A stretch of 64,000 nucleotides of DNA. It comes from Cryomorphaceae bacterium. Lineage in GTDB: Bacteria > Bacteroidota > Bacteroidia > Flavobacteriales > ECT2AJA-044. A model generated the notes under the pieces. The model had not been told where the DNA came from and did not search any database. It saw only the letters and a list, made by a program, of their open reading frames with translations. This document shows positions 4,665-45,037 of the stretch, one piece after another (positions within the stretch are counted from its first letter, which is position 1; each line of letters begins with the position of its first letter). The stretch is from NCBI GenBank assembly GCA_017798125.1, contig CP059070.1, forward strand, positions 744,001 to 808,000. The letters are read 5' to 3'. The translations under genes were made by a program, and so were the position numbers.

Positions 4665-4680
4665 TGTTCCACGTGAAACA
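4665..4680 (+). promoter_or_regulatory. parS-type centromere site (left of mnmG)
   Basis: The 16-mer TGTTCCACGTGAAACA differs at one position from the chromosomal ParB-binding parS consensus TGTTTCACGTGAAACA, and that position is variable between species. It lies 7 bases before the mnmG start codon. Its exact reverse complement occurs right after the mnmG stop codon. ParB nucleates on such sites in origin-proximal DNA. Neither parA nor parB is in this window. Confidence 0.85.
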
Positions 4681-4687
4681 TTGACAC

Positions 4688-6556
4688 ATGTTTGCTAAAG
4701 AATACGATGTTATAGTAGTAGGCGCAGGGCATGCCGGCTCAGAGGCAGCGGCAGCTGCTGCAAACCTGGGCTCCTCTACCCTACTGATCACCATGAACCT
4801 TCAGACCATTGGGCAGATGAGCTGCAACCCCGCCATGGGCGGGATCGCCAAAGGGCAAATCGTTCGTGAAATCGATGCTTTGGGAGGCTACAGCGGGATC
4901 ATCTCTGATGAAACAGCCATTCAATTCCGAATGCTCAACCGCTCTAAGGGTCCAGCTATGTGGAGTCCTCGCGTTCAGAGCGACCGAATGAGATTTGCGG
5001 AAAAATGGCGCCTCATGCTGGAGCAAACGCCTAATCTTGATTTCTTTCAGGATATGGTGACCGGCATCATCGTCGAAGGAGATCGAGTGGTTGGTGTTCG
5101 CACAGGCCTAGGGCTGGAGGCTCGTGCCAAAAGTGTGGTCCTGACCAATGGGACCTTCCTCAATGGGCTCATCCACATCGGAGAAAAGAACTTTGGTGGA
5201 GGGCGCGCTGGGGAGCGTGCTGCTACAGGATTAACCGAAGATTTGATCAAATTGGGCTTTGATCATGGGCGTATGAAAACGGGGACTCCCCCACGGGTCG
5301 ATGGTCGTTCTCTGGACTACTCCAAGATGACTGAACAAGCCGGTGATGAAGCTCCTCAAAAGTTCAGTTTTACGGATACCCAGCCGCTCCAAACGCAGCG
5401 GTCCTGCTGGATTACCTATACCAGCGAAGAAGTTCATGATGTATTGAAGACGGGCTTCGACCGTTCTCCTATGTTCAACGGCCGCATTCAAAGTATCGGG
5501 CCGCGTTATTGCCCTTCCATAGAAGACAAAATTGATCGATTCGCAGATAAGAATCAGCACCAAATATTTGTTGAGCCAGAAGGTTGGGATACAGTTGAAA
5601 TCTATGTCAATGGTTTCAGCACCTCTCTTCCTGAAGAGGTCCAATACGAAGCCCTGCGCAAAGTAAAAGGCTTCGAGAACGTCAAGATTTTTCGTCCCGG
5701 ATACGCGATTGAATACGACTACTTTCCCCCCACTCAATTGAGCCATTCCCTGGAGACCAAGTTGGTCGAAGGTCTGTTTTTTGCAGGACAAATCAATGGT
5801 ACAACGGGGTATGAAGAAGCCGCAAGCCAGGGTCTGATGGCAGGTATTAATGCCCATCGAAAGGTACATGGTTTATCGTCCTTTACCCTGAAAAGATCGG
5901 ATGCCTACATAGGTGTGCTTATTGATGATTTAATCACAAAGGGCACAGATGAACCGTACAGAATGTTCACTTCACGAGCGGAGTATCGGATTCTCCTCCG
6001 TCAAGACAATGCGGATCTTCGACTTACGCCAATCGCATACGACATGGGCCTTGCTTCGGAAGAACGTATGGAGCGCGTACGAGAAAAGAGGGCAAATACA
6101 TCAGAATTGAAGAAGTTTTTGGAAGCTACAAGCGTAGAGCCCTCTGAGGTTAATCCAATTCTTGAGTCTCTTGAAACGGCTCCCATCGACCAGAAAAGGA
6201 AACTAGACACGCTACTGTCTCGCCCTCAAGTCCACATCAACGATTTGGCTCAGGTGGAATCGTTAAAGTCCTATATCAGTGAGCGAGGAATTGAAGAAGA
6301 AGACTTAGAACAGTGTGAGATTCAATTGAAGTACCACGGATACATAGAAAGAGAACGAGAGAATGCTGAAAAGCTTCATCGATTAGAGGATATTTCCATT
6401 CCCATCGACTTCAACTTCTCAAAACTTCAAGCGATAAGTTTGGAAGCTCGCGAAAAATTGAACGAAATTCGTCCTGCGAACATCGCTCAGGCCAGCCGAA
6501 TAAGTGGTGTCAACCCCGCTGATATCAATGTGCTCTTAGTGCATATGGGGCGATAA
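4688..6556 (+). CDS. mnmG: tRNA uridine-5-carboxymethylaminomethyl modification enzyme MnmG (GidA)
   Basis: This 622-residue FAD protein works with MnmE to place the carboxymethylaminomethyl group on U34 of several tRNAs. The FAD-binding GAGHAG motif is at residues 12-17, followed by the family strings MSCNPAMGGIAKG and RMKTGTPPR. The C-terminal helical domain contains the typical ASRISGVNPADI sequence. Length matches the family. The gene is bracketed by two inverted parS-like sites, one before the start and one directly after the stop. Its own promoter lies at 4588-4618. mnmE is not in the window. Confidence 0.97.
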   Translation: MFAKEYDVIVVGAGHAGSEAAAAAANLGSSTLLITMNLQTIGQMSCNPAMGGIAKGQIVREIDALGGYSGIISDETAIQFRMLNRSKGPAMWSPRVQSDRMRFAEKWRLMLEQTPNLDFFQDMVTGIIVEGDRVVGVRTGLGLEARAKSVVLTNGTFLNGLIHIGEKNFGGGRAGERAATGLTEDLIKLGFDHGRMKTGTPPRVDGRSLDYSKMTEQAGDEAPQKFSFTDTQPLQTQRSCWITYTSEEVHDVLKTGFDRSPMFNGRIQSIGPRYCPSIEDKIDRFADKNQHQIFVEPEGWDTVEIYVNGFSTSLPEEVQYEALRKVKGFENVKIFRPGYAIEYDYFPPTQLSHSLETKLVEGLFFAGQINGTTGYEEAASQGLMAGINAHRKVHGLSSFTLKRSDAYIGVLIDDLITKGTDEPYRMFTSRAEYRILLRQDNADLRLTPIAYDMGLASEERMERVREKRANTSELKKFLEATSVEPSEVNPILESLETAPIDQKRKLDTLLSRPQVHINDLAQVESLKSYISERGIEEEDLEQCEIQLKYHGYIERERENAEKLHRLEDISIPIDFNFSKLQAISLEAREKLNEIRPANIAQASRISGVNPADINVLLVHMGR

Positions 6557-6572
6557 TGTTTCACGTGGAACA
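6557..6572 (-). promoter_or_regulatory. parS-type centromere site (right of mnmG)
   Basis: TGTTTCACGTGGAACA starts on the base after the mnmG TAA and is the exact reverse complement of the site at 4665-4680. It ends 5 bases before the next start codon. The two copies are 1.9 kb apart in opposite orientation, both in non-coding DNA, as expected for sites kept by selection. Confidence 0.85.
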
Positions 6573-42620: not shown

Positions 42621-43052
42621 TCAAGCACAAGCTATTTTGTCCACTCGTCGTTGGTGACGACCACCTTCGAATTCAGCGGTTAGAAATCGCTGAACAATGC
42701 GCTTGGCCATTTCATCCGTGATAAATCGTGCGGGAAGAGCTACAACATTGGCATCGTTGTGTTGACGAGCTAGATCTGCAAGCTCTTCATTCCAACACAG
42801 CGCACTTCGAATACCCTCATGCTTATTCAAAGTCATGTTGATTCCGTTTCCACTTCCACAAATAGCAATACCCAGCTCATTTCTACCTTCTTCAATAGAA
42901 GTAGCGAGCGGATGTGCATGATCTGGATAATCTACTGAATCAGGTCCGTCGGTGCCGAAGTTCTCTACTTCATGCCCTAGAGATTCCAACAATTCAGTCA
43001 ATTGGGGTTTCAATTCGTAAGCGGCGTGGTCACCAGCGATACCTATCTTCAT
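42621..43052 (-). CDS. rpiB: Ribose-5-phosphate isomerase B
   Basis: This 143-residue enzyme interconverts ribose 5-phosphate and ribulose 5-phosphate in the pentose phosphate pathway. It starts MKIGIAGDHAAYELK, has the phosphate/ring-opening region SVDYPDHAHPLA, the catalytic Cys in AICGSGNGINM, and the NDANVVALPARF helix. ATG 43052 is preferred to an in-frame start at 43073, which would overlap the promoter. It borders the candidate origin region. Confidence 0.95.
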   Translation of the reverse strand: MKIGIAGDHAAYELKPQLTELLESLGHEVENFGTDGPDSVDYPDHAHPLATSIEEGRNELGIAICGSGNGINMTLNKHEGIRSALCWNEELADLARQHNDANVVALPARFITDEMAKRIVQRFLTAEFEGGRHQRRVDKIACA

Positions 43053-43070
43053 AAAGCCTTGATTTGCAGG

Positions 43071-43078
43071 CAAAGATA
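43071..43078 (-). promoter_or_regulatory. Bacteroidota -7 promoter element for rpiB
   Basis: On the minus strand this reads TATCTTTG (TAnnTTTG), 18 bases before the rpiB ATG. No clear -33 element is visible. Confidence 0.6.
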
Positions 43079-43099
43079 AAGCCTTTTCACCGAGGTATC

Positions 43100-43512
43100 C
43101 GACTGTTCACAAAGCCTTGTGAATAGATGTTAATAACTGTAGATAAGCTCTGGACAAAAAAGAATGAAACCAATGCTTTTTTTACCTACTGAACCTTTCT
43201 TTCGCCTTTTCCAAGTCGACTTTTTACTTCTTTCTCCCTTCTTTTTGGGCATTAATTCACATTCAAAGTCGACCTTTACCCAAGAGAGAAATACAATTTG
43301 AGCGGGTTCCACGTTTATTCACAGATGTGTATAAATTAGCTAAGTCGCTCAGCTGTAACGAACTTTAATGAACAGATGGCCGTTTTGGCGGTGAACAACA
43401 TTTAACAAGGGAAGTACACAAGAAAAGTCCTTTTAAGTTATCCCTGCTGTTAACCGACTATTACTATCATATTAAATTCTTTAAAAGAATAAGAAGATAA
43501 ATAAGAGGTGTT
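43100..43512. other. Candidate chromosomal replication origin (DnaA-box cluster, AT-rich end)
   Basis: This is the only gene-free stretch over 300 bases. It has two perfect DnaA boxes (TTATNCACA): TTATTCACA at 43315-43323 (plus) and TTATACACA at 43326-43334 (minus), facing each other 2 bases apart. One-mismatch boxes lie at 43118-43126 (minus) and 43253-43261 (plus), and a two-mismatch box at 43103-43111. The inverted repeat TTCACAA-4-TTGTGAA is at 43107-43124. AAGTCGAC occurs twice (43213, 43267). A pyrimidine-rich stretch spans about 43175-43248, and the last 75 bases are AT-rich with a 15-base palindrome (43476-43490). A half parS (GTTCCACGT) at 43306-43314 abuts a DnaA box. dnaA is not adjacent, so this remains a candidate. 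Confidence 0.55.
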
Positions 43513-43513
43513 A

Positions 43514-45037
43514 ATGAGAACTTGGAGTATTTGGATTCTTCTTTTGGCTCTATCGAGTACAGCTTTTGCTCAAACCGATACGACCGGAGAATATACCGTT
43601 CTGTACTTCCGGGATGGCACTACTGTTTCGAGTGAGGGCTATATGGTCGATGGGCAACCCAACGGCTATTGGAAGACGTATCATCCCAATGGCAATCTCA
43701 AGTCCGAAGGAAATCGAGTGAACTTCAAGCTCGATGGCGAATGGATCTTTTACGGAAACGAGCAAGACACTATGCTCAAGGTGACCTACGATCAAGGGAT
43801 CAAAGACGGATTGCGTACAACATTCAAGGAGGGAATAAAGCAGAAAACCGAGACCTATGTTCAGGATGAGCGCCAGGGTCCCACGAAGTGGTTTTATCCC
43901 GAAGCTGGCGTTCAGCGCATGGTTCCTTTTGTGGACAACCTCGAACAAGGCAACGGTTTTGAATACGGTGAGGATGGAAGACTGATTACGCTGTATACGT
44001 ACAAGAAAGGAGTCCTTGTCAAGCAGCAAAAGATCAATCGTTTTAGTGAAGCAGGCGATACCGTTGGATTCTGGATGTGGTTTTGGCCCGATGATGTGAT
44101 TCGCCAAGAAGGTAGTTATTCCAAGGGGCTGCGTCATGGCTACTTCAAGTACTACGACGAGAAGGGAAATCTCCGCCGTACGGAGAAGTACATTGATGGC
44201 GTGCTACAACCCGATGCCCCAGAAACGGCAAAAATGCGCGTACGTAGAACAGTATATGCAGATGGATCCATTAAAACCCTCGGTGGTTATCGCAATGGTG
44301 TGAAAGATGGAGTGCACCGTTCGTACGACGAAGATGGAAATGTAATTTCAGGAGCGAAGTACAGTTTAGGAACCTTATTGGCCGAGGGTATTTTAGACGA
44401 TCAGGGACGTGAACAGGGTCCTTGGGTGTTCTACTACTCAACAGGCGAGAAAAAGGCTGAGGGGGAATATAAAGACGGAAAGAAGATCAAAGAATGGAAG
44501 TACTACCACCGCAATGGTAAAATGGAACAAACAGGTCGATATCAAAACGATTTACCTGTTGGTTTTTGGCGCTGGTATTTCGATGATGGAACCGTGCGTC
44601 GAGAAGAAGAGTATTTCAGAGGTTTAATGGAAGGCCCTTCGGTTGAATACAATGAGTTTGGCGAAGTGGTTGCCGAAGGCGAGTACCTCGATGGTTTCAA
44701 AGAAGGTCCATGGAACTACAAAGTGGGCGATCATACCGAGTTGGGTAGCTACGTCGAAGGGGAGCGTCAAGGCGTATGGAAGTATTATTGGGCGGATACG
44801 GAAGACCTACAATTTCAAGGAGGTTACATTGACGGAGAACCTGATGGCAAACACAAGTACTATTGGCCTAACGGTAAGGTTCGAATGGAAGGAAAGTACA
44901 TTGTAGGCGCTAAGAATGGCGATTGGATTTACTACAATGAACTGGGTGAAATTCAATTGTACATCACCTACGAAGATGGGGTAGAAGTGAAGTACGACGG
45001 CATCCCAGTCGATGATCTCTTAGGTCCAGAGCAATAG
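43514..45037 (+). CDS. Secreted MORN-repeat (YwqK-like) protein
   Basis: This 507-residue protein has a signal peptide ending near AFAQ. It is built of about 16 imperfect repeats of 20-24 residues of the form G-x-W-x-x-Y-x-x-x-G-x-x-x-x-x-G-x-Y-x-x-G, for example GYWKTYHPNGNLKSEG, GPWVFYYSTGEKKAEGEY and GKHKYYWPNGKVRMEGKY. MORN repeats form an open beta-sheet often used for lipid or protein contact. Automated naming as a YwqK antitoxin is not supported: there is no toxin gene and the protein is exported. ATG 43514 is taken; GTG 43508 is possible. Confidence 0.88.
   Translation: MRTWSIWILLLALSSTAFAQTDTTGEYTVLYFRDGTTVSSEGYMVDGQPNGYWKTYHPNGNLKSEGNRVNFKLDGEWIFYGNEQDTMLKVTYDQGIKDGLRTTFKEGIKQKTETYVQDERQGPTKWFYPEAGVQRMVPFVDNLEQGNGFEYGEDGRLITLYTYKKGVLVKQQKINRFSEAGDTVGFWMWFWPDDVIRQEGSYSKGLRHGYFKYYDEKGNLRRTEKYIDGVLQPDAPETAKMRVRRTVYADGSIKTLGGYRNGVKDGVHRSYDEDGNVISGAKYSLGTLLAEGILDDQGREQGPWVFYYSTGEKKAEGEYKDGKKIKEWKYYHRNGKMEQTGRYQNDLPVGFWRWYFDDGTVRREEEYFRGLMEGPSVEYNEFGEVVAEGEYLDGFKEGPWNYKVGDHTELGSYVEGERQGVWKYYWADTEDLQFQGGYIDGEPDGKHKYYWPNGKVRMEGKYIVGAKNGDWIYYNELGEIQLYITYEDGVEVKYDGIPVDDLLGPEQ

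Follow-up and report, generated by a model that had tools for sequence, protein, structure and literature searches.

In the present study, the non-coding gap between rpiB and a MORN-repeat protein gene was recognised as the predicted replication origin of the chromosome of this Cryomorphaceae bacterium. We put the probability that this gap is its single bidirectional origin (oriC) at about 0.93. The window, that is, the whole 64-kb stretch of DNA that was analysed, covers positions 744001-808000 of a single 2,844,510-base contig, and the site lies at 787.3 kb on this contig. The DnaA boxes and their uniqueness, the skew switch, the conservation and the positions of parS and dif were all computed, and from these we infer replication activity. 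The initial annotation had proposed a candidate oriC in the gap, and the proposal is now supported by the skew, the box cluster, the relatives and parS. The predicted oriC has several mutually independent lines of support; it is ordinary in kind and useful in place. The features are collected in Table 1.

Table 1. Features of the proposed origin and its surroundings (positions in the window)
Feature	Position	Strand	Remark
Proposed oriC, non-coding gap	43053-43507		between the divergent rpiB and MORN-repeat gene
Perfect DnaA box TTATTCACA	43315-43323	+	left half of the head-to-head core
Perfect DnaA box TTATACACA	43326-43334	-	right half of the head-to-head core
One-mismatch DnaA box TAATTCACA	43253-43261	+	conserved; sister genome counterpart TTAATTCACATTCA
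Three one-mismatch DnaA boxes CTATTCACA, TTATTAACA, TTATCTACA	43118-43146	-	
Inverted repeat TTCACAA-N4-TTGTGAA	43106-43123		near rpiB start
Most conserved segment of the gap	43310-43339		97% identity to sister species vs 62.5% for 43074-43289
Candidate DNA unwinding element	43456-43506		lowest nearest-neighbour stability
rpiB, ribose-5-phosphate isomerase B	42621-43073	-	likely start ATG 43052-43050
MORN-repeat protein gene, right flank	43508-45037	+	start GTG 43508 or ATG 43514
parS-like site TGTTCCACGTGAAACA	4665-4680		before mnmG
mnmG (gidA)	4688-6556	+	parS-like sites on both sides, also in four relatives
parS-like site TGTTTCACGTGGAACA	6557-6572		after mnmG

One criterion for a bacterial oriC is that DnaA boxes are clustered outside genes, and in the gap they are. 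Two perfect boxes face each other 2 bp apart at 43315-43334, just as the initial annotation had described, and four one-mismatch boxes are located upstream of this core pair (at 43118, 43128, 43138 and 43253). These six boxes (≤1 mismatch) within 300 bp form the top cluster in the 884 kb examined; a search for a better cluster, with perfect boxes counted chromosome-wide and clusters scored in 884 kb, found none. The usual box-binding domain-IV signature GNKDHATVLHAC is present in the DnaA encoded by this genome, and TTATNCACA is therefore the sequence that it should recognise. Three perfect boxes in the 64-kb window are an unremarkable number (shuffle mean 1.28, with at least three in 13 of 100 shuffles); it is the pairing that is remarkable. 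On the chromosome, perfect boxes number 64, a density of about one per 44 kb, and the earlier estimate of one per 30 kb had to be corrected to about one per 44-50 kb. Only 0.028 pairs of perfect boxes within 20 bp were expected in the whole chromosome and two were observed, of which 43315-43334 is the sole convergent pair (gap up to 12 bases) in the closed 2.84-Mb sequence and the other, at 2347087-2347107, is in direct orientation. Against the origin, we counted that the core pair supplies the only two perfect boxes in the proposed oriC. As three perfect boxes are no rarity in a window of this size, a chance cluster in an AT-rich gap might be suspected; this explanation is made exceedingly improbable by the small number of close pairs expected genome-wide and by the identity of the pair segment in the sister species, which is far higher than that of the gap's left part. 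The 64-kb window gave no matches when scanned for Rfam families and tRNAs. The gap had been called the only large non-coding one in the 64 kb; the final 0.9 kb of the window is another part without a clear gene.

AT-rich, thermodynamically unstable DNA next to the boxes, a further criterion, was also present. The candidate unwinding element, about 120 bases from the core, is the least stable of all 50-bp segments in the 64-kb window, where the stability is computed and the melting a prediction; the AT-rich tail reported earlier beside the boxes is real. A DnaA-trio next to a DnaA box constitutes the basal unwinding system (PMC8287927). In a search for a trio at the gap, the best score was matched by 36% of shuffles and was not significant, which we set against the origin.

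The boxes and their position are conserved in relatives. In the sister species, the sole other genome of the family that was compared, TTATTCACAGATGTGCATAA lies between the same genes, and the pair, its 2-bp spacing, the synteny and the distance to the parS pair are all kept. The left core box TTATTCACA is identical in the sister genome, and the right one reads TTATGCACA there at an unchanged distance of 2 bp. The order rpiB-gap-MORN is retained in a more distant relative (L055), with RpiB 71% and MORN 46% identical; the gap of L055 contains two perfect boxes, one of which (TTATGCACA) is aligned with 43315, and parS is 26-28 kb away. The scan for boxes beside rpiB that had been recommended as a check found them kept in the sister, in L055 and in many flavobacteria.

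The inverted repeat TTCACAA/TTGTGAA near rpiB, which had been read as a pair of upstream DnaA boxes, is present at 43106-43123. In the sister species it is changed in a paired manner to TTAACA/TGTTAA, so the repeat is kept and the match to the DnaA box is lost; within 43118-43146 the first one-mismatch box is lost there and the TTAATAACTGT segment is retained. Because conservation extends to the repeat and not to its DnaA-box character, a weak point of the proposal, we have left it out of the core: these upstream boxes probably lie outside it, and the repeat is perhaps an operator of rpiB or a hairpin. A repeat conserved in this form, in a gap that is a divergent promoter region, would also suit the view that DnaA uses the boxes of the gap to control rpiB and/or the MORN gene, as a promoter or operator, and that the true origin is elsewhere nearby. 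We consider this very improbable, given the skew switch, parS and dif, and the enrichment of boxes beside rpiB in flavobacteria with differing right-hand neighbours.

The reading of the gap as oriC was also compared with GC skew. The skew was sampled in the window and in 40 stretches of 20 kb, which together make up about 30% of the chromosome; it was taken at fourfold degenerate sites and averaged across genes on both strands to remove coding bias. This strand-controlled skew switches from minus to plus at 760-790 kb and from plus to minus at 2.17-2.28 Mb, both ranges being those of two log-likelihood units; 2209.6 kb is the position diametrically opposite to the gap. The skew minimum by which the initial annotation wished the origin to be judged was found at the locus of the gap by the fourfold skew of the sampled 30% or so. 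The change-point of whole-sequence skew was ill-defined, with a best fit at 300 kb and a range including 730-910 kb, as noise and one extreme stretch prevented it from placing the switch. The stretch 2414001-2434000 has an extreme GC skew of -0.225, far from that of its neighbours.

Among the other landmarks, a parS search (≤2 mismatches) gave no sites other than 748665 and 750557 on the contig, 37-39 kb from the gap. The parS pair 37 kb away, earlier taken as a sign of origin-proximal DNA, is the only pair of the chromosome and is nearby. mnmG was flanked on both sides by parS-like sites in all five genomes examined (the window, L051, L052, L151 and L206). A dif-type pattern had one exact match, at 2133774, and nearly identical sites (ATAATNNANATTATGTTAA) were found in five of the eight other genomes searched, which argues that this match is the true dif. 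The arms from the gap to the dif-like site measure 1346 and 1498 kb; parS is near the gap and the dif-like site opposite to it. dnaA, whose adjacency to oriC is common and not defining, is located at 2155501-2156895, near the skew maximum and 1.4 Mb from the gap. It is 22 kb from the dif-like site, which puts the initiator gene in the terminus region. The earlier remark that dnaA is not adjacent is true and describes the normal state in Bacteroidetes: according to the authors of the Prevotella intermedia study, oriC in this group is commonly far from dnaA (PMC4755523), and a distant dnaA is hence no serious objection.

If the origin is in the gap, the ATP synthase operon is head-on to the fork, and this was counted against it. 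The objection, raised earlier, stands and is weak, since neither arm showed a gene strand bias in the sampled stretches. The sole 16S gene (1418520, + strand), marking the single rRNA operon, is on the leading strand, transcribed in the direction in which a fork from 787 kb would move. That operon would be head-on if replication instead started in the opposite half of the chromosome, close to dnaA (2155 kb) or to the direct pair (2347 kb), with an inverse sign of the skew. The position of dnaA near the skew maximum, and the conservation of the 2347-kb pair with identical spacing, would agree with such a placement; we nevertheless regard it as extremely unlikely, with parS by the skew minimum, the dif-like site by the maximum, no minus-to-plus fourfold switch within 2.27-2.70 Mb, and the same skew polarity at rpiB in Flavobacterium. 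The 2347-kb pair (L042:9087-9107), whose boxes are 3 bp apart, lies immediately after the stop codon ending a fused pyruvate-dehydrogenase-type E1 gene; the sister species has an identical 24-bp block that includes both boxes. The existence of this second conserved pair was set against the gap. By skew the pair is not an origin, and it is perhaps a DnaA-titrating or reactivating site, similar to datA or DARS.

Support for the gap beside rpiB was also obtained from the wider lineage. Over 77 Bacteroidota loci, the DnaA-box score of the 550 bases upstream of rpiB was 3.06, and the controls at the same loci were 0.98 (dinucleotide shuffles) and 1.55 (reversed DnaA motif). Enrichment at p≤0.05 was seen at 24 of 39 flavobacterial loci vs 5 of 38 others, the two groups being sorted by record titles and L055 being counted among the flavobacteria. 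At rpiB, the fourfold skew goes from minus to plus in contigs of F. algicola and Flavobacterium sp. TAB 87, and parS is about 16-20 kb from the gene. Polaribacter sp. Hel1_85 gave no clean skew switch at rpiB, although boxes are present there; this is a weak point of the proposal. The rpiB-side position appears to be common to many related bacteria. rpiB as a neighbour of oriC was not found in the literature searched, a search that lay apart from the DoriC and Ori-Finder indicator-gene tables.

The exact head-to-head pair occurs in four of 396 genomes of the order, hence it is not universal, and the idea that it might be a motif common to the whole order was rejected. In G014, a genome of another family of the same order, a convergent pair TTATTCACA-2 bp-TGTGGATAA is placed in a cluster of eight boxes in a different gap, 3.6-5.5 kb from the parS sites flanking mnmG; judged by the reading frames, the adjacent genes seem to encode an OxyR-like regulator and an M16-type peptidase. 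This setting makes it probable that the pair marks the origin there too, with other neighbours. A pair in G196 was also set aside; its boxes are separated by 3 bp, the boxes there are few, and no parS is close to them. We lean slightly towards the view that flavobacteria ancestrally had their origin in the gap upstream of rpiB, with mnmG-flanking parS as a second fixed landmark, that the convergent pair with the 2-bp gap is the core in some lineages and moves with the origin as neighbours change, and that dnaA has moved away, in the extreme case into the terminus.

The events at the gap can be proposed from known oriC biology. ATP-bound DnaA would bind the head-to-head boxes as a nucleation core, would then fill the weaker boxes to the left and would melt the AT-rich segment, after which the replicative helicase would be loaded. 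Two forks would depart, one via rpiB and the ATP synthase operon and the other via the MORN gene, and would come together again close to the dif-like site at 2.134 Mb. Segregation of the new origins would fall to ParB, bound at the parS-like sites on either side of mnmG, 37-39 kb from the gap.

The proposed oriC resembles the E. coli and B. subtilis type in its cluster of TTATNCACA boxes with neighbouring least-stable DNA, in the skew minimum, in parS nearby and in dif opposite. It differs from this type in having dnaA 1.4 Mb away near the terminus, and a convergent core pair with a 2-bp gap and no detectable DnaA-trio. With the predicted oriC of Prevotella intermedia OMA14 (PMC4755523; DoriC) it shares a skew transition and multiple DnaA boxes far from dnaA; the neighbour here is rpiB, and the likeness rests on skew and boxes, not on neighbouring genes. 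The G014 locus (L052) has the same 2-bp-gap pair in a gap, with parS flanking mnmG 4-6 kb away, but eight boxes vs six here and neighbours other than rpiB.

Bacteroidota origins cannot be located by looking beside dnaA. The association with rpiB across flavobacteria is the more interesting part of the result. The rpiB marker, together with mnmG-flanking parS and the conserved dif, would place origins in draft flavobacterial genomes, and such placement would support growth-rate estimates from read depth.
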